Assembly: GCA_003242955.1 (NCBI GenBank)
Contig: QJPH01000279.1
Span: forward strand, 1-32,158
Source: Candidatus Methylumidiphilus alinenensis
GTDB lineage: Bacteria > Pseudomonadota > Gammaproteobacteria > Methylococcales > Methylococcaceae
Direction: 5' to 3'
Length of the DNA stretch: 32,158 nt
Both the position numbers and the translations under genes were made by a program. Shown here piece by piece: positions 2,574-31,791 of this stretch. Each line of letters opens with the position of its first letter. Position 1 is the stretch's first letter. Under the pieces are notes generated by a model. That model was not told the origin of the DNA, made no database searches, and was given only the letters and a program-made list of their open reading frames with translations.

Positions 2574-2728
2574 GATTTTTCTCAAATATGTTTGCTTGAA
2601 ATGAACAATTTAAGGATAGGGTCGAAAATAACTTCCGTGTTGCTCGTACCCAATATCCCGCTTAGTAATGTGGTTTTTGAAGCTCCTGCTTCCCGAAAAA
2701 CAGCCAAGCAGGGACTTGCAATAAAAGG

Positions 2729-3010
2729 GTTCCCAAGCCGGAGATATCATCGTTATACACAAGTCAGGGAAAGCGGGGAAAGCCGTCATTTCGGCAGGGA
2801 TGCCGAAATCCAGGCCATGGACGGTAATCAGCAGGTTGTGCAAGTGCTTGATTCAGGTGACTTGCCTAGCCTTAGTTTACCGTCCGAGGATACAAGGGCA
2901 TCTCTTGTACCCCACAGTTTGCCATCCTTGGACGCTGGATTTCGGCATCCCTGCCGAAATGACGGGCCTCCAACACTTGTGTATAACGATGAGAGTCCGA
3001 GCTTGGGAAC
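2729..3010. repeat. 282-bp MITE with 36-bp terminal inverted repeats
   Basis: The ends 2729-2764 and 2975-3010 are 36-bp inverted copies (about 30/36 identical), starting GTTCCCAAGC and ending ATCGTTATACACAAGT. Inside sits a copy of the GTCATTTCGGCAGGGATGCC palindrome family (2767-2965). The same 36-bp ends occur at 5569 and 6013. The open frame through it is a by-product of the repeat and is not called as a gene. A 15-bp near-perfect direct repeat (AACAATTTAAGGATA at 2604, AACGATTTAAGGATA at 3020) lies outside the ends. Confidence 0.75.
2767..2965 (+). repeat. Palindromic repeat, long form, copy 1
   Basis: A roughly 199-bp palindromic element bounded by GTCATTTCGGCAGGGATGCC and its complement, with a unique spacer containing GGTTGTGCAAGTGCTTGATT. 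A second copy, in inverted orientation and with only scattered differences, lies at 6461-6659 on the other side of the NACHT and DUF3301 genes. Shorter relatives occur at 5816, 23945, 25011 and 30989. Confidence 0.75.
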
Positions 3011-3111
3011 CTGCCAGAGCAACGATTTAAGGATAAGTATAGATTCAGATCGTGGAAAAATCCATTTGAAAACCGTAGTATTGTCGCTGAACGAAGGGCG
3101 GGGTTTCTGAC

Positions 3112-5244
3112 ATGGAGCCATTAACCTTTGTCAACATCCAGTGGGTCAAGCCGCTGCTGCAAAAGCTGAACGATATCCGAGGCCAACGGGCCAAGGACGT
3201 GACGGCCTTGGCCGATGTGTTTGGCGACCCCAGGGTGTTGTTGAATTATTACGTCGTCCCCAACTGCCAACACCACAACCCGGCGGACCACGACGAGGAC
3301 GAACGTTCGCGTTCCTATGTAAAAGCACCGATTGATGCCACCTTGCAAGCGTTTCTCGGCGCGGAGACCTTGCTACGGGACGGGCGCAACCAACTCTTCA
3401 TCCTCGCCGATGCCGGCATGGGCAAGACAACCTTGCTGTTGATGCTAAAAATGTGGCATCTGTTTTCGTTCTGGCCCAAAGGGTACGACTGTTTGTTGCT
3501 AAAACTGGGCGATGATAGCTTGGAACACATCGCCAAACACGAAAACAAGGCCAACACCGTGCTATTGCTGGATGCGCTGGACGAAGACCCGAAGGCGCAT
3601 GGGCGGATTGACGAGCGGTTGAAAGAACTCTTGGAAGCCTCGCGCAATTATCGCCAAGTGTTGATTACCTGCCGGACCCAGTTCTTCCCTGCCATCGGCT
3701 TGGACCCGTTAGGCGATGCTGGCCGTGTGACCTTGGGCGGCAATCGTTGCCCGATGTTGTTTTTGTCCTTGTTCGACAATGACCAAGTGGATGAGTATCT
3801 GCGCAAACGCTTCCCCAACCCTTGGCATGCAAGATTTAGCCACCGTACCGACCCGCGCCGGATTAAAGCGCATGAAATTCTTGGTTCGATGCAATCCTTG
3901 CGTTTCCGGCCCTTGCTATTGGCCCATGTGGACGAATTGCTGAAAGCCAAAGACCGGCTGACCAATGCCTACGAGATTTTCCAAGCCTTGGTGGGGGTTT
4001 GGCTGATACGCGAAATTGGCAAGATGGAACGGCAAAAACTCAACCCCATCCCGACGGCGCAGCAACTTTGGGGTGCTTGCCGCTTGCTGGCGGTGTATCT
4101 GCAAATTCAGGGCAAGCGCGAAATGACCGAGGCGGAAATGGGCGAATTGATGCGGCATCTGCCTGCCGTCGCCCATCTGGAAAAGCTAGATTTCGGGGGA
4201 CGTTCTTTACTGAACCGCAATTCCAAGCGCGAATACCGATTTTCCCATTACAGCATCCAGGAATTCCTCGTCGTCCATGCGCTGAAAGAAGGGGCTTTGC
4301 AGCGCGATCTGGCACACTGCCCTAAAACTGTGCTAGGTGGCAAATTGAAACTGACCGCGCAGATGCTGAGTTTTTTGGTAGCCGGTTCAAGCGTGGCCGT
4401 ACTTGAAAAAAGTTCGGCCTTTTTGGATTGGCAAGATTTGTTCCCAGCCAAACTGTTGAATTGGATGGGCAAAGGGGAATTAAAACCTGATGATTTTTTG
4501 GGTTTGGGATGGCGCAGTGAATTGACAGTGGGCGGCTTAGGCCCGGAGATGGTCATCGTACCCGCCGGAACCTTCTGGATGGGTTCCAAGAAAGGCGAGA
4601 AGGATGCGCGAGAAAACGAAATGCCCCGCCATTCCGTGACAATAGCCAAACCTTTCGCGGTAGGCCGTTATCCGGTGACGTTTGATGAGTATGACCGCTT
4701 TTGCGAGTCCACTGGCAGGAACAAGCCAAATGACCAAGGCTGGGGACGGGAAAATCGCCCGGTGATTAACGTGTTCTGGGAAGATGCCCAGGCGTATTGT
4801 GCTTGGTTGGCTGAACAGACCGGACAGCCTTACCGTTTGCCCACTGAGGCGGAATGGGAATATGCCGCCAGGGCAGGCACGGAAACGGCGTATTGGTGGG
4901 GTGATGACATCGGTGTCAACCGGGCGAATTGTGATGGTTCTGGTAGCCAATGGTCCGGCAAACAAACTTCCCCGGTGGGTTCATTCCCGGCCAATCCGTT
5001 TGGGCTGCATGACACCTCGGGCAATGTTTGGGAATGGGTGCAAGACAATTGGCGCGACACTTATCAAGGTGCACCAAAAGATGGCAGGGCTTGGGAGTCA
5101 GGTGACAGTGATTATCGGGTTTTTCGCGGCGGTTCTTGGTACAATCAGACCGGCCTCGTCCGCTGTGCGTTCCGCGTCAGGTTCCATTCCGACTATCGGA
5201 ACTTTAATTTCGGCTTTCGGTTGGTGTTGGGTTCTCCCTGGTGA
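3112..5244 (+). CDS. NACHT NTPase with C-terminal FGE/C-type-lectin domain
   Basis: A 710-residue STAND-type NTPase, probably a conflict or antiphage sensor (inference). The NACHT domain has a Walker A ADAGMGKTT with Lys105, a Walker B LLLLDALDED around Asp154 and a sensor-like ITCRTQF at about 182-188. A helical region (about 230-460) is followed from residue 480 by an FGE-sulfatase/SUMF1 domain of the C-type lectin fold: MVIVPAGTFWMG, YRLPTEAEWEYAARAG, GNVWEWVQDNW, RVFRGGSWYN. The active-site Cys pair of true formylglycine-generating enzymes is absent, so a ligand-binding role is likelier. Codons 677-699 resemble a diversity-generating retroelement variable region: 19 of 23 end in C or T. 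No reverse transcriptase or template repeat is in the window. The region before the ATG resembles the end of ccdA. Confidence 0.85.
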   Translation: MEPLTFVNIQWVKPLLQKLNDIRGQRAKDVTALADVFGDPRVLLNYYVVPNCQHHNPADHDEDERSRSYVKAPIDATLQAFLGAETLLRDGRNQLFILADAGMGKTTLLLMLKMWHLFSFWPKGYDCLLLKLGDDSLEHIAKHENKANTVLLLDALDEDPKAHGRIDERLKELLEASRNYRQVLITCRTQFFPAIGLDPLGDAGRVTLGGNRCPMLFLSLFDNDQVDEYLRKRFPNPWHARFSHRTDPRRIKAHEILGSMQSLRFRPLLLAHVDELLKAKDRLTNAYEIFQALVGVWLIREIGKMERQKLNPIPTAQQLWGACRLLAVYLQIQGKREMTEAEMGELMRHLPAVAHLEKLDFGGRSLLNRNSKREYRFSHYSIQEFLVVHALKEGALQRDLAHCPKTVLGGKLKLTAQMLSFLVAGSSVAVLEKSSAFLDWQDLFPAKLLNWMGKGELKPDDFLGLGWRSELTVGGLGPEMVIVPAGTFWMGSKKGEKDARENEMPRHSVTIAKPFAVGRYPVTFDEYDRFCESTGRNKPNDQGWGRENRPVINVFWEDAQAYCAWLAEQTGQPYRLPTEAEWEYAARAGTETAYWWGDDIGVNRANCDGSGSQWSGKQTSPVGSFPANPFGLHDTSGNVWEWVQDNWRDTYQGAPKDGRAWESGDSDYRVFRGGSWYNQTGLVRCAFRVRFHSDYRNFNFGFRLVLGSPW
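5137..5220 (+). other. Candidate DGR variable region (VR)
   Basis: The last part of the C-lectin domain runs GGSW, then residues 677-699, then FGFRL, the layout of known DGR target proteins (GGSW ... NNxGFR). The candidate variable codons are TAC, AAT, ACC, GGC, CTC, GTC, TTC, GTC, TTC, TCC, GAC, TAT, AAC, TTT and AAT, as expected if adenines of AAY codons in a template had been mutated. This is inference: no template copy lies in the window. Confidence 0.45.
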
Positions 5245-5299
5245 TTGCTGAATTCTGTCTGCTGATTTCTGATTGCTTTTTTCTGTTTTCTGCTCTTTT

Positions 5300-5568: not shown

Positions 5569-6013
5569 GTTCCCACGCTCCTGCGCTCGTCGTTATACAC
5601 AAGTCCGCCCGAGTGGAAATATTCCGAGGGATACGGGGTTTACCATCGTTACTGGAAAAAGAAGTTTCACGCAAAGGCGCAAAGAAGAGCGATTTTCTTT
5701 GCGCCTTTGCGTGAAACTTGCTCTTTGGAATTGTCGAACATTCATGTGTTCTAACAGGTATCGCCACACTTGTGTATTAAGGATGAGCGCAGAGCGTCAC
5801 TGCCATTAAGTTAAGCCGTCATACCGGCAGGGATTGCCGGTATCCAGTCCACAGGGATGTGAAACTGTGGGCTGCAAATTACCAAAATCAAACACTTGCT
5901 CTGCAACGAGTTTGCCCTCCATGGCTTCTGGATTCCGGCAATCCCTGCCGGAATGACGGCGTTTTTGGTCCGAAGGGACTTGTGTATAACGGAGAGAGCA
6001 GGAGCTTGGGAAC
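5569..6013. repeat. Nested mosaic element with 36-bp inverted ends
   Basis: The left end 5569-5604 and right end 5978-6013 are 36-bp inverted copies of the same termini found at 2729 and 3010. Inside are a TTTCACGCAAAGGCGCAAAG hairpin (about 5666-5719), a second right-type end truncated at 5768-5797, a CACTGCCATTAAGTTAA terminus (5798-5814) that belongs to the MITE family seen at 9701, and a GTCATACCGGCAGGGATTGCC palindrome (5816-5959). At least three insertion events are needed to explain this order. Confidence 0.65.
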
Positions 6014-6069
6014 CAGCCAGACTTCTTTCGGGAAGTTGTTTTTGACCATAGCCTATCATTACCGCCACC

Positions 6070-6460: not shown

Positions 6461-6659
6461 CGCCGTTCGGCAGGGATGCCGAAATCCAGCGTCCAAGGAT
6501 GGCAAACTGGGGATCACAGCAGATGCCCTTTTATCCACGGACGATACCCTAAGGCTAGGCAAGCCTCCTGAATCAAGCACTTGCACAACCTACTGATTAC
6601 CGTCCATGGCCTGGATTTCGGCATCCCTGCCGAAATGACGGCTTTTCCGGCTTTCCCTA
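6461..6659 (-). repeat. Palindromic repeat, long form, copy 2 (inverted)
   Basis: Read on the minus strand this copies 2767-2965 almost throughout, including the spacer GGTTGTGCAAGTGCTTGATT and the ends. It lacks the 36-bp termini that surround copy 1. It lies in the 323-bp gap between the convergent DUF3301 and cobS genes; apart from the hairpin before it, I see nothing else there. Confidence 0.72.
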
Positions 6660-20092: not shown

Positions 20093-20209
20093 AGTTATTA
20101 ATTGATGTTACGCACTGTAGGCCGTAGCCCGGATGGAGCCGTTTACGGCACAATCCGGGCAACGATAATGGGGTTCAACAGCAAGGGTGCGTAACGTCAG
20201 TTATTAATT
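20093..20209. mobile_element. 95-bp MITE with 11-bp target duplication at the fae stop codon
   Basis: The element 20104-20198 has inverted ends GATGTTACGCAC and GTGCGTAACGTC (one mismatch). It is flanked by a perfect direct repeat AGTTATTAATT at 20093-20103 and 20199-20209. The fae stop codon (20204-20206) lies in the right-hand copy, so insertion occurred at the very end of fae without harming it. The interior is the GTAGCCCGGATGGAGCC palindrome. Confidence 0.82.
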
Positions 20210-20713
20210 AGGGGCGAAGGGGTGCTTGAACGAGCCTTTTTGCGCCACTACCTCTGCGGCCGTCGGTGTACCCTCAACGGCGCGTTTGATGGCTTCGCGG
20301 GTGGCTTTGTAGTTGAAGTCTTGAATCTTCGCATCGTCTTCAGCCAGCCAGTGAATGAAAACGCCTACGCAAATGAAAACATCGTCGGCTTCCTCAGCTG
20401 GAATAGTGCCATCTTCAACCGAATCGGCAACAGCCAAGGCAACGCCGCGTTGCGCTGGGCCGAACATCTGCACAGCCTGCTTGCCGTTATTGATAGTGAC
20501 CTTATTGAAAAGGATGGTGTTTGGCTTAACTGCCAAATTAGGCGCAACCACTGCCAGCAGAGTGCTGAAGCCATCCTTGTTGTTGACCAAGGCGCTGGCG
20601 AAGGCCGTTTCTGCGCTGCTGCCACGGGGCCCCATAATCAGGTCGATGTGAGCAATTTCATTCCCATCACCCACCAAAGATTCGCCTACCAGCAATTTAT
20701 TAATTTTCGCCAT
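20204..20713 (-). CDS. fae: 5,6,7,8-tetrahydromethanopterin hydro-lyase (formaldehyde-activating enzyme)
   Basis: Fae (169 residues) condenses formaldehyde with H4MPT to methylene-H4MPT, the entry to C1 oxidation in the cytosol of methylotrophs. The sequence is nearly collinear with Methylobacterium Fae: [23 protein letters not shown] (His22 equals the proposed catalytic histidine), [50 protein letters not shown], and a C-terminus ending HPFAPN. GAGGAAAA lies 5 bases before ATG at 20713. It is preceded by a 129-bp gap with a likely promoter, so it can be expressed independently of the CitG-like gene upstream. The stop codon abuts a MITE. Confidence 0.97.
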
Positions 20714-23918: not shown

Positions 23919-23944
23919 AAGTTGTTTCAGCTAAACTCAAAACA

Positions 23945-24044
23945 CCGTCATTCCGGCAGGGATCGCCGGAATCTAGGCTCCATGGACGGCGGGGTTTTTG
24001 GCATCCCTGCAATCTGGATTCCGGCGATCCCTGCCGGAATGACG
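23945..24044. repeat. Palindromic repeat, short form
   Basis: A 100-bp unit from CCGTCATTCCGGCAGGGATC to the complementary end GACG. It is close to the copy inside hsdR (30989-31090) and, in its outer parts, to 25011-25182. The rest of 23919-24354 holds AT-rich and repeat sequence (GCGCAATA units near 24100 and 24170) and no supported gene. Confidence 0.75.
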
Positions 24045-24279
24045 AAATAGCTAAAATCTCTTTCTAATTACAACTATATAAGTTCAGCTTTTCAGGTCCA
24101 AGGGCGCAATAGCGGCCCCCGCCGCGTATTGCGCCGAATGGGAACCGTCCAACATACGGCGAAAAACGACTTACGCCTATTGCGACTACGAATGCGCCTT
24201 ACCGCCTTAGTTGTTAAAACCGAATCCTTAGCATAAGGAGCTTGGGAATCGGCAAACCGACGGAATATTAGCCGGGTAG

Positions 24280-25201: not shown

Positions 25202-26197
25202 TCACCCCCCAAACGACTTCTCCAACAACTCTTCATCCAATTGCCCGGCATGGAAGCTATTGCCGGTGTCGATATTGGTGACGATGACCTTGGCAGGGCT
25301 GAACAGCATGGCATCGACTTTGAAAAAGTCGTAGCCGTAGTCTTTGAAAACGTTGGCAAAGGGTCTGCCGTAATCTTTTGAAACCGAACTGGGGAGTTCA
25401 TTGGCTAGGTTTTCCGCCGCTTCGTCCCCCCCTTTGACAAACAAATGCACCGTGCCGCCAAACAAGATGGCATCGTTAGTGCGTCCCATGGCTTGGACGA
25501 AATTAGGATGTGGCGGCGGAACCGGGGCAGAGGCCACGCCGTCAATGATATTTTCCAGCGGAAAGTGCAACGAGTGTGCTTTGTGCAAGGCGACCTCCAA
25601 TACGCGGGAGACGACCTGCATCCCGCCGGCCAAGCTGCTGGTCGGAGTCAGGATGACGCTGATCTTGGACGGGTCAAGTTGGCAGGCTTTGGCGACGTGG
25701 TCGATCAGTTCCACAGGCGGAATCTTGTCCACCTCCAGTACGATGGCGGTTTCGCCACTGGCATCGCGATAGCCAAGTTCTTTGTACAAATCCTCCACCG
25801 GCACTTCAACACCGTCTCTGGTTTTGACCGCCAGCGCCCGCGCCGGACCTGAACCCAAGGCGTAGAAAGCCGCCTTGCCTTCCCCGTGGGACAGGCTCCA
25901 ACCCGCGTATTGGCTACCTAGGCAAGAAATGACCGGGTTGGTGGAGTGGACATTAACCATGGTCGGCCATCCGCTGAACGGCCCCCCTTGCGTCAGGGTG
26001 ACAGTGCCTAGCCCCCCCATGCAGATTTCTCCAATTAGCCGTCCGGCTTCCAAGCTGCCCAATGTTTCGATACCTGCGTCAATTAGCGTCGCACCATTGG
26101 CAAACGTGTCAATTTTCAACCTTAGCTTGTCGGCGTTGGCGATTAGATATTTGACGATGGGCAGTGCATGGGCGTTGACGCTGACGGGTTTTGTCAT
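25202..26197 (-). CDS. mch: Methenyltetrahydromethanopterin cyclohydrolase
   Basis: Mch (331 residues) hydrolyses methenyl-H4MPT to formyl-H4MPT, the middle step of H4MPT-linked formaldehyde oxidation. The protein is full length and matches the family: [127 protein letters not shown] at 26197 follows AGAGAATAACC. It is the last gene of the mptG, ATP-grasp, mch group; a hairpin 54 bp upstream (26251-26283) may attenuate read-through or mark a separate promoter. Confidence 0.97.
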
Positions 26198-28602: not shown

Positions 28603-31600
28603 TTAAGCCTGCTTCCCACGCAAACGCTGATAAACCTGTTTAGAAATCCATTCCCCCACTAACTGCTGAAATTCCTTTTCGTTCATAAACCGCGCAAAGA
28701 TGTCTTCGTTTTGTTCCATGCGCTCTGCGAACAAGGTTTGCAGCAGATTGCCAAACAACAGGGCGAACTTGTCTTCCGGGTTGGCATCGGCGGCTTGCTT
28801 TAAGTCATCATCAAGCATTGCCGCTTCGATGATTTGGTCAAAAAATAGTTGGTCGGCTTCTGTGAACTCTGTGCCAAATCGGTCATTGATTAAGTCAATC
28901 AGCCGCGAAAGGGCGATCTTATCTCGTGAAACGCCGCTGCCGGTTTCGTTAGGCCCATCCAGTGGCTTGGCTTCACCTTCCTTCAAACCGATAGCCCCTT
29001 CGCTAATTTTTTGTAGCCGGTAATATTCCAGACGGATTTCTTCATCAAAATTGTATTGCTTTTCTCCCCGGCGTTTACGCAACTTAGGGGCAAGATGCCG
29101 CAAGAAGGTATACAGCTTTTCCAAGTCTGAATCTTGGTAAGGGATGATTTGCGAAAGAAAGGCATAGAGATTGCGGAAGGCAAATAGTTTTCCGCGCCAA
29201 AGTTCGGCGTCCTCCTCCTTTTCATCCAGCCAGTGGGCAAAGCGGTCCACTGCCGGATCAAGCGCTGCATTCATAGTTTGATGGTCTGCGGCACTTTGGC
29301 GCAATTTCGGCTTGAAATATACCGCAATAAACCGCTCCACTTCTTCGGTCAAGTAAATGCCGGTCGCATCCAGTTCTGCCTTGATTTCATACATTCTGGC
29401 CGGTGCGACTTCTTCGCCCATCAACGCGCCATCGAAATATTGTTTGAAGGCTACGCGGATTTCCTCTCTGTCGTTGACGAAATCCAAAATGAAGGTGTCC
29501 TCCTTCAGTGGATGGACACGATTAAGCCGCGTCAGCGTTTGTACAGCCTGAATACCCGCCAACCGCTTGTCTACATACATCGTATGCAATAAAGGTTGGT
29601 CAAAGCCCGTCTGGTACTTTTCTGCCACCAACAAGACTTGGTAATCCTTAGAGGCAAATTTATCAGGAATCTCTGATTCTTTGATCCCGTCATTCATGCC
29701 AATTTCGGTGTAGGCTGTTCCCGGAAGTTTATCGTCCTCCACAATCCCGGAGAAGGCCACCAAAGTCTTGATCCAGTGATAGCCCTTGGCTTTGATATAA
29801 GTGTCGAAAGCTTGTTTGTAGCGCACGGCTTCAAGCCGTGAACCAGTGACAACCATGGCTTTTGCTCTGCCGCCAATGCGATGGCGTGTGACCGAATTGA
29901 AGTGTTCCACCATCACCTCGGTTTTTTGGGCGATGTTATACGGGTGTAGGCGCATGAACCGGGTCAAGGCTTTGGCGGCACGTTTACGCTCGACGTTGGG
30001 GTCTTCCTCGCAGGATTTCAGCAGCTTGTAATAAGTCGCGTAAGTCGTGTAATGCTTCAACACATCCATGATAAAGCCTTCCTCGATGGCTTGGCGCATC
30101 GTATAGCGGTGAAATGCCAGTCCCGGTTTACCGTCCTTTTCTCGCCCAAAGACGGCGAGCGTTTTGTGTTTGGGCGTGGCGGTGAACGCAAAAAAACTAA
30201 TATTGGCCTGTCGCCCTCGTTTGGCCATGCTACGGAAGAGTTCTTCCAGGTTCTCCACGCCTTCCTCAAGGGCGTAACGTGCCGCTTCCTGCCTCAAGTC
30301 GTACCCACCTAGCAGCTCCTTCAAATCGGCTGCCGATTCGCCCGACTGCGAACTGTGTGCCTCGTCGATAATCACCGCGCAGCGGCGAGTTGGCAACACG
30401 CCATCACTGGATTCCCCGCGTTCCTCTGCCAGCTTGTTCAATTGCCGGGTAACGAAAGGGAACTTCTGCAAGGTGGTGATGATAATCGGGATGCGTGATT
30501 CCAAGGCTTCGGCCAATTGACGCGAATCCTCATCAATCTTTTGCACTACGCCCTTGCGGTGTTCAAATTGGTAGATCGTGTCCTGTAATTGGCGATCCAA
30601 CACCCGCCGGTCGGTGATGACGATCACCGTGTCAAAAACCTTTTCATCCCGTTCATTATGCAAGGATGCCAGCCGGTGGGCGATCCAGCCGATGGTATTG
30701 CTCTTGCCACTACCCGCCGAATGTTCAATCAAATAATTATGCCCCGGCCCTTCAAGCCGTGCTTGAGCTTCCAATTCACGCACCGCCTGTAATTGATGCC
30801 AACGCGGGAAGATTAGGGTTTCTTTCTTGATCTTGTGGCCTTCGTCCGTGAAGTATTCATCCACTTGCAGATGCAGGAAACGGGCGAACAAATCCAACAG
30901 GCTTTCCCTTTGCCAAACCTCTTCCCACAAATAAGCCGTGCGGCAACGGCCTTCCTGTCCGGGCAATGTTGTTGAATTAAGAATAACCCCGTCGTTCCGG
31001 CAGGGATCGCCGGAACCTAGGCTCCATGGATGGCATGGATTGGTGGCATCCCTGCAATCTGGATTCCGGCGATCCCTGCCGGAATGACGGCTAATTTCAA
31101 CGGTATTGTCCTGTCTGGGTGGGTTACCCGCACCGCCCTCATAGCCTTGGTTGAAAGGCAGAAAATGTGTCGCGTTGCCCGCCAGTCGTGTCGTCATGAA
31201 CACGGCTTCGGTGTCCACGGCAAAATGCACCAGCGCCCGCTTCTTGAACTCAAACAGCTTTTCGCGGTGGTCGCGGTTCTGCCTGTATTGTTCCAACGCA
31301 TCTTCCACGGTTTGCCCGGTCAAGGGGTTTTTCAATTCAGCCGTGCAAACCGGCAAGCCGTTAATCGTCAGCGTCAAGTCCAGTTCATTGGTATTGCGGC
31401 TGCTGTAACGCAACTGCCGGATTACGCCTAGCCGGTTGGCGACATACCGCGCCGATAATTCCGGGTTCATGCCATGGGCGGGTTTAAAGAAAGCCACGCG
31501 CAAAGTCCGACCATAACATTTGAAGCCATTGCGCAACACCGCCAAAGTGCCGTAAGTGTCCAGCCATTGGGCCAAATCAGCCAGTACGATTTCGGAGGTT

Positions 31601-31791
31601 TTCTCTGCGTGTAGGGCTTCCAACCTTGTCCATTCCTTGGGTTGGGTTTTCTGGATGAATTCCAAGACAACGGAGGGGGAGAAAGCGCGGTCGGTGTCGT
31701 AGTCTTTGGAGGATAAGGATTCGTAACCGTGCGTGATTAAGTGAGCTTCGATCTGGGATTCAAAGGCGTGTTCACGGGTTTGATCATTCAT
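28603..31791 (-). CDS. hsdR: Type I restriction endonuclease subunit R with in-frame repeat insertion
   Basis: HsdR (1062 residues) is the motor and nuclease subunit of a type I restriction system. The nuclease region has TAELKNPLTGQ (about 150-160), the helicase has Walker A EHSAGSGKSNT with lysine near 363, DEAH at about 475 (VIIDEAHSSQSG), FTATPKHKTL, and a helicase C domain with EKYQTGFDQPLLHTMYVDK and QTLTRLNRVHP. Between GNPP (near residue 230) and RTAYLWEEVWQRESLL, normally adjacent or nearly so, the protein carries about 50 extra residues, of which about 34 are encoded by a palindromic repeat (30989-31090). The frame is intact. ATG at 31791 has AAGGAT upstream and starts 5 bp after the preceding gene. 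hsdM and hsdS are not in the window. Confidence 0.9.
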   Translation of the reverse strand: MNDQTREHAFESQIEAHLITHGYESLSSKDYDTDRAFSPSVVLEFIQKTQPKEWTRLEALHAEKTSEIVLADLAQWLDTYGTLAVLRNGFKCYGRTLRVAFFKPAHGMNPELSARYVANRLGVIRQLRYSSRNTNELDLTLTINGLPVCTAELKNPLTGQTVEDALEQYRQNRDHREKLFEFKKRALVHFAVDTEAVFMTTRLAGNATHFLPFNQGYEGGAGNPPRQDNTVEISRHSGRDRRNPDCRDATNPCHPWSLGSGDPCRNDGVILNSTTLPGQEGRCRTAYLWEEVWQRESLLDLFARFLHLQVDEYFTDEGHKIKKETLIFPRWHQLQAVRELEAQARLEGPGHNYLIEHSAGSGKSNTIGWIAHRLASLHNERDEKVFDTVIVITDRRVLDRQLQDTIYQFEHRKGVVQKIDEDSRQLAEALESRIPIIITTLQKFPFVTRQLNKLAEERGESSDGVLPTRRCAVIIDEAHSSQSGESAADLKELLGGYDLRQEAARYALEEGVENLEELFRSMAKRGRQANISFFAFTATPKHKTLAVFGREKDGKPGLAFHRYTMRQAIEEGFIMDVLKHYTTYATYYKLLKSCEEDPNVERKRAAKALTRFMRLHPYNIAQKTEVMVEHFNSVTRHRIGGRAKAMVVTGSRLEAVRYKQAFDTYIKAKGYHWIKTLVAFSGIVEDDKLPGTAYTEIGMNDGIKESEIPDKFASKDYQVLLVAEKYQTGFDQPLLHTMYVDKRLAGIQAVQTLTRLNRVHPLKEDTFILDFVNDREEIRVAFKQYFDGALMGEEVAPARMYEIKAELDATGIYLTEEVERFIAVYFKPKLRQSAADHQTMNAALDPAVDRFAHWLDEKEEDAELWRGKLFAFRNLYAFLSQIIPYQDSDLEKLYTFLRHLAPKLRKRRGEKQYNFDEEIRLEYYRLQKISEGAIGLKEGEAKPLDGPNETGSGVSRDKIALSRLIDLINDRFGTEFTEADQLFFDQIIEAAMLDDDLKQAADANPEDKFALLFGNLLQTLFAERMEQNEDIFARFMNEKEFQQLVGEWISKQVYQRLRGKQA
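30989..31090. repeat. Palindromic repeat inserted inside hsdR
   Basis: A 102-bp copy, 34 codons exactly, of the family at 23945-24044, with about 90% identity by eye. It contributes residues including RHSGRDRRNP and NPCHPWSLGSGDPCRNDG to HsdR. The bases just outside (GTTGAATTAAG and CTAATTTCAAC) are themselves inverted near-copies, so the mobile unit may be slightly larger. Confidence 0.85.

Follow-up and report, generated by a model that had tools for sequence, protein, structure and literature searches.

A STAND/NACHT-like NTPase gene of Candidatus Methylumidiphilus alinenensis is probably an orphaned target of a diversity-generating retroelement found in sister species

The gene at 3112-5244 encodes an NTPase with a C-terminal FGE/C-lectin domain, and the original prediction took it for a sensor whose ligand-binding tip is diversified by a retroelement located elsewhere in the genome. 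Is this tip the variable repeat (VR) of a diversity-generating retroelement (DGR), and if so, where are the template repeat (TR) and the reverse transcriptase (RT) that wrote it? We addressed these questions in the window, which is the whole 32,158-nt stretch of DNA analyzed here and corresponds to contig C53 of its own genome, G000. In the translation of the window, the NTPase ORF is intact (plus strand, 710 aa), and it has the following domains and motifs.

3112-5244, plus strand: STAND/NACHT-like NTPase with a C-terminal FGE/C-lectin domain, 710 aa (translation, Pfam, orthologues)
3415-3432, plus strand: Walker A, GMGKTT, residues 102-107 (from the translation; identical in two full-length orthologues)
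3562-3585, plus strand: Walker B, LLLDALDE, residues 151-158 (from the translation)
4543-5226, plus strand: FGE/C-lectin-fold domain, residues 478-705, without the FGE cysteine pair (Pfam PF03781, 209 bits; sequence relatives in the PDB)

The protein had been described as a NACHT protein with intact Walker motifs. The P-loop GMGKTT and a Walker B of the LLLDxLDE type are both present, but the scores against Pfam NACHT (19.9 bits, cut-off 26.7) and nSTAND3 (24.6 bits, cut-off 27.2) are sub-threshold, and therefore STAND/NACHT-like is the safe wording at the sequence level. For comparison, the target gene belonging to the DGR of sister genome G003 scored 42.9 bits against NACHT. The C-terminal domain matched the FGE-sulfatase model over residues 478-705, far above its cut-off of 23.3 bits, and its sequence relatives in the PDB are PvdO (5hha), FGE (2aft) and, more weakly, the DGR protein TvpA (2y3c). 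In the alignment to 2aft the cysteine pair is absent from the window domain; the aligned positions are those that we take to be the active-site pair of FGE, and the 2aft chain itself has Ser at the first of the two. The motif GGSW-x23-FGFRL is present at the C-terminal end, so this part of the description held. No Pfam domain was found in residues 1-69, and neither Pfam nor PADLOC recognized an effector domain. PADLOC matched 0 defence families, and the EruA model gave only 20.3 bits against a cut-off of 1000. The AlphaFold models are of low confidence (pLDDT 46 for the full protein, 44 for the FGE domain). Going by the family, the variable residues would lie on the ligand face of the domain. 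The protein might thus bind a ligand, switch through its NTPase and take part in defence, possibly as an antiphage sensor.

The DGR proposal started from the codons of the tip. The count was exact: 19 of the 23 codons 677-699 end in C or T, with p = 0.0023 against the gene's own rate of 369/711 for this one chosen window of codons. However, sliding windows with at least 19 such codons occur 14 times among the 688 of the gene, all of them starting at codons 663-681. The bias is real, but because of this single-window p value and these 14 windows it is weak alone, and we rejected it as proof.

We compared the tip with the TRs of seven genomes of the genus, namely G000 and its sisters G001-G006. 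A TR was inferred from two VRs (that of the window and that of a 79% identical orthologue) and used to search the seven genomes, and the real TR sequences were then compared with the tip. Family TRs were found in four of the six congeners (G002:C572, G003:C528, G006:C113 and G001:C157), and in two of these four the TR is accompanied by a full-length DGR RT. The repeat and its surroundings are as follows.

5125-5220, plus strand: VR core, residues 672-703 (compared with the G002 TR, 17 differences at adenines and 6 elsewhere; codon-position test)
5212-5244, plus strand: constant 3' end of the repeat, GFRLVLGSPW-stop, IMH-like (over bases 5221-5244, ten targets of five sister genomes share 20-24 of 24 and three TRs 19-20 of 24)
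5245-5299, plus strand: downstream element common to the family's targets and absent from the TRs (ungapped comparison)

The window VR differs from the G002 TR at 23 of 96 bases, and 17 of these differences are at TR adenines, which occupy 30 of the 96 sites (p = 1.4e-6). At no site does the VR have A where this TR has another base, and of the six non-adenine differences five fall at third codon positions and one at a first position. Against the G006 TR, 16 of 22 differences are at adenines (p = 1.3e-6), with one site where only the VR has A. The fractions are 16 of 26 for the G003 TR (p = 9.4e-5) and 15 of 25 for the G001 TR (p = 1.7e-4). As a control, the five unrelated TRs resident in G000 gave 14-19 adenine-site differences of 34-41 (p = 0.002-0.044), and we ascribe this mild excess to a background from the shared codon plan. 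Since the tip matches these TRs with differences concentrated at adenines, and since orthologues vary at the same codons, the sequences support a genuine DGR VR at the tip of the window gene. The original prediction of a DGR-diversified tip is thus borne out, most clearly against the two closest sister TRs.

Orthologues were searched in 81 genomes with an E-value limit of 1e-60, and up to 14 candidates were scored in each. Those found in congeners and in one other genus of the family are 79, 75, 65, 58 and 52% identical over nearly the whole protein. The G001 orthologue lies at a contig end, with one TGA inside the match, and is 70% identical over residues 265-710. The orthologue on G004:C123 is syntenic with the window gene. 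Between these two, the amino acid changed in 11 of the 17 TR-A codons (65%), compared with 138 of 671 codons (21%) outside the VR (p = 1.3e-4). Changes at codon positions 1+2 and at position 3 numbered 13:3 in the VR and 183:249 outside it (p = 0.003). The same contrasts were seen with G003:C274 (14 of 17 codons changed; 18:4 vs 213:271, p = 6.5e-4) and with G001:C154 (12 of 17; 18:7 vs 150:186, p = 0.011). In the paralogue-like G004:C246, 15 of 17 codons changed and the position bias was absent (17:9 vs 306:277, p = 0.23). The third-base rate alone was not significantly lower in the VR in any of the four comparisons (p = 0.13-0.81).

We also compared 18 other tips of the family, 14 of them in TR-bearing genomes. 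Five of these 14 (G003 C528 and C525, G002 C572, G006 C141 and G001 C153) have 0 non-adenine differences from the TR of their own genome, which is what an active DGR would leave, and 3-11 when they are compared with the TRs of sister genomes. The tips orthologous to that of the window fit their own-genome TR poorly, with 14 non-adenine differences in G001 and 8 in G003. Compared with the 0 of the fresh targets, these numbers make the orthologue group of the window look older than freshly written targets, and the group may use another template.

The similarity between targets continues beyond the stop codon. Over 5245-5299, without gaps, the window shares 49 of 55 bases with two G004 targets, 27-38 with eight other targets and 13-17 with the three TRs. 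Within G000, the target end of the family has one strong match, the window gene itself (110 bits), and the best other match to the downstream element has 31 bits. One of the two G004 targets, on C169, is differently built: it encodes about 1200 aa, the N-terminal domains are its own, and the FGE domain has diverged. It matches the window at 16 of the 60 bp before the VR, as expected by chance, at 60 of the 66 non-adenine VR sites and at 49 of the 55 bp after the stop. Because the similarity to C169 covers the VR and the following 55 bp and leaves out the preceding 60 bp, the VR and the downstream element appear to behave as a target cassette, in which the element is presumably functional. An inverted-repeat hairpin of at least 7 nt was looked for downstream of the VR and was not found in 5245-5299.

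The machinery of the family was found in sister genomes. In G003 the TR is followed by a 1008-aa NACHT-FGE target, RT, Avd, a putative porin and a putative 6-phosphogluconate dehydrogenase-like gene. G002 has the same DGR parts split over two contigs, and its Avd is identical to that of G003 at 91 of 109 residues. In the stretches fetched from G001 and G006, the TR is kept and the RT is reduced to its N-terminal part (64 and 104 aa matched, respectively).

G001, L163 7420-7611: N-terminal DGR RT remnant, TR still present
G006, L162 11688-11999: N-terminal DGR RT remnant, TR still present

The DGR adjoins a bfr-like gene in G001 and G002 and the porin in G001, G003 and on the second G002 contig, while that of G006 sits elsewhere than this bfr-porin site. 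In G000 the site is empty: about 425 bp separate the porin from the bfr-like gene, and where G001 has about 4.0 kb, the matches to the two flanks meet within 32 bp. It is likewise empty in G005 (about 120 bp) and in G004, where the bfr side runs on into the far flank (about 200 bp). No family DGR machinery was found in G000 or G004. The G000 assembly (6.57 Mb, a draft of 597 contigs) has seven RVT_1 matches, all on contigs other than that of the window, so the window indeed has no RT. None of the seven, when compared, was the cognate family RT, and DNA searches of this draft with the window VR or the inferred TR found no family TR. The near-copy of the VR next to a DGR RT that the original prediction had called for in the own genome did not turn up in this draft. 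Two candidates from the first DNA search were rejected as templates: C345 lies in a non-template ORF, helicase-like by reading, and C319 is another target tip.

We therefore think that the window gene is probably an orphaned DGR target: a sensor that was diversified in the past and has since lost the retroelement that did so. The FGE/C-lectin domain would be the sensing part, with its last ~30 residues as the ligand-contact surface, coupled to the P-loop switch. The tip would have been written by mutagenic retrohoming from a TR of the GFRLVLGSPW family, and RT errors at template adenines would have scrambled AAY codons in positions 1-2. Since the family machinery was not found in G000, the binding surface of the window copy was most likely diversified once and is now frozen. 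The machinery, with TR, RT and Avd beside their own NACHT-FGE target, is complete in G003 and, across two contigs, in G002, and it is kept with a truncated RT in G001 and G006. By analogy with the NACHT-CLec DGR targets of PMC10907252, the scrambled residues would bind a ligand and the NTPase would then switch to a signalling state. We observed the TR match, the adenine bias, the orthologue pattern, the shared downstream element and the empty site; that the family template is truly absent from G000, and not merely unassembled, is what we infer, together with ligand binding, NTPase switching and any role in defence.

The main alternative is that a DGR still acts on the gene from a distance and that its template and RT were simply left unassembled in the draft, and we consider this rather unlikely. 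With 597 contigs the assembly is fragmented, and a TR or an RT could have been missed. In G004, moreover, the targets on C123 and C169 show 7 differences over the 96 VR bases, every one of them at a TR-adenine site (p = 1.7e-4). This is a sign of recent DGR activity in that lineage, although the search of the G004 assembly gave no family TR either. The six non-adenine differences between the window VR and a foreign TR are also within the 3-11 that active targets show against sister TRs, so the VR alone is no proof that diversification has stopped, and the poor fit of the G001 and G003 orthologues to their own TRs may point to another template. On the other side, the completeness of G000 is given as 100%, five other DGRs did assemble, and the site that holds the DGR in sisters is empty in both G000 and G004. 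Between two sisters the RT of the family is 90% identical, and none of the five resident DGR RTs exceeds 50-52% identity to it. The other two contigs with RVT_1 matches, C188 and C210, have no TR-like frame and did not match the family RT.

That the tip belongs to an ordinary FGE-like binding domain without any DGR past, shaped by strong diversifying selection, was already disfavored and is very unlikely. Surface loops of binding proteins can evolve fast, and selection on a binding surface would also raise change in these codons, so the raised first- and second-position change alone could reflect it. However, the tip directly matches TRs of congeners, two of them in loci with a DGR RT, and the adenine bias is directional. 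Selection also fits poorly with the differently built gene that has the same VR and following 55 bp without the same 60 bp before them.

It is just as improbable, and was likewise disfavored, that a resident DGR now diversifies the tip in trans. The five DGRs of G000 (C59, C107, C128, C160 and C172) each have an RT beside an AAC-rich TR, and all the RTs carry IGxxxSQ, which we take to be typical of DGR RTs. The one resident Avd tested, that of C59, is above the NCBIfam cut-off. These DGRs have other remote targets in G000. We examined 45 VR-like FGE tips, which are only those in regions fetched around matches to the window FGE domain and in the RT contigs, and 22 of them fit a resident TR with 0-2 non-adenine mismatches. 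The other 23 do not fit or are not comparable; among the 45, L082 3043 is spurious (stop), L077 looks like an ordinary FGE, and three, L082 included, have no resident TR of equal length. The window VR has 17 (C59), 22 (C172), 22 (C107), 23 (C128) and 24 (C160) non-adenine mismatches of 96, and on these counts we rejected the resident DGRs as its donor. The original prediction was therefore right that diversifying retroelements exist elsewhere in the genome, but no template among them fits this gene. Besides the window, five G000 tips fit a sister TR of G004 with 1-8 non-adenine mismatches, the closest being C68 with 1 to the C185 template, and a second template of the C160 type was seen on C317.

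A formylglycine-generating or related oxidase enzyme fused to the NTPase is hardly credible: PvdO and FGE are among the best single sequence relatives, but the cysteine pair is absent in the 2aft alignment, the NCBIfam enzyme models score far short of their cut-offs (PvdO, 170.7 vs 500) and the tip is hypervariable between orthologues.

What began as a codon-bias hunch becomes a case in which the gain, decay and loss of a DGR can be tested within a single genus. The same DGR is seen in three states, with related sensors in each, and we can ask whether hypermutated sensors are kept once the mutator is gone. It is possible, though on balance doubtful, that the DGRs of this genus are transient diversifiers, in which a TR/RT family spreads its VR cassette to many sensors and is then lost or left without an RT. 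Fixed sensors selected from the scrambled pool would then stay behind and record past ligands in the germline. The window gene would be a frozen receptor of this kind, and up to about half of the VR-like tips examined in G000 (23 of 45) may be others.

Several other elements were noted in the window. The repeat search found the following around the gene.

2728-3018, no strand assigned: MITE-like element with inverted ends, upstream of the gene
5569-6021, no strand assigned: MITE-like inverted repeats, downstream of the gene
6466-6658, no strand assigned: inverted copy of 2766-2958 (193 nt, 92% complementary) on the far side of the gene

A palindromic repeat at about 30987-31092 lies in frame inside a type I restriction HsdR gene (28603-31791), and the same kind of repeat occurs at about 5814-5961 and 23943-24047. 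A CcdB toxin gene (Pfam, 112.9 bits), preceded by a putative CcdA-like frame, is found at about 1560-2129. This region lies between a Gfo/Idh-like gene and the NTPase, and that gap is only ~240 bp in the syntenic G004. On the minus strand, 2319-2585 encodes a small secreted-looking protein with three NGRYVCG-like Cys repeats and no family above cut-off. The genes at 20204-20713 and 25202-26197 are putatively fae and mch, which belong to the methanopterin C1 pathway and would fit a methylotroph.

Among known DGR proteins, TvpA of Treponema (PDB 2y3c) has a similar FGE/C-lectin-type domain (phmmer E = 2.9e-13, query residues 572-705). Its chain has 294 aa and, unlike the window protein, is presumably not an NTPase fusion. 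The closest parallels are in multicellular bacteria: in PMC10907252, DGRs 3 and 6 of Thiohalocapsa PB-PSB1 have NACHT/nSTAND-CLec(FGE) targets, which, like the window gene, combine a STAND NTPase with a C-terminal FGE/CLec domain containing the VR. Like G000, these bacteria have numerous DGRs in one genome, with degenerate loci and surrounding MITE-like repeats, and DGR loci degraded by transposons are in print in the same paper, according to which the CLec domains of STAND proteins have not been characterized experimentally. Unlike the Thiohalocapsa case, the template and RT of the window VR were not found in the own genome and are carried by sister species, and the genus belongs to the methanotroph family Methylococcaceae, which the text of the paper does not name. 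Among the papers listed in literature searches for DGR and methanotroph, none was on DGRs of methanotrophic bacteria by title or abstract, and one of these lists was too short to say much.

Remote DGR targets are in print as well (PMC7517822 and PMC8144416). The remote variable proteins of cyanobacteria resemble the window gene in having the VR at the 3' end of a CLec gene and in one apparently abandoned VR, that of Anabaena all3226, which keeps remnant TR-VR homology with no RT nearby (PMC7517822). In contrast to the cyanobacterial case, the comparison here runs across congeners in which one DGR is intact, has a truncated RT or is absent. NTP-dependent conflict systems, gammaproteobacterial ones among them, also have an FGS (FGE-type) effector or sensor domain diversified by DGRs, and in the excerpts of PMC7159879 they are vWA-MoxR ternary systems, unlike the STAND NTPase fused to the variable domain in the window. 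In Bordetella phage BPP-1, the short region directly 3' of the VR is part of the target (PMC3240598), as may be the ~55 bp common to targets only in this family, and unlike BPP-1 the window has no inverted repeat of at least 7 nt in 5245-5299. Thus, NACHT-CLec DGR targets, remote targets and one cyanobacterial VR without a nearby RT were already known; as far as searched, what is new is this member, its genus and the series across species in which the DGR is intact, truncated or absent.
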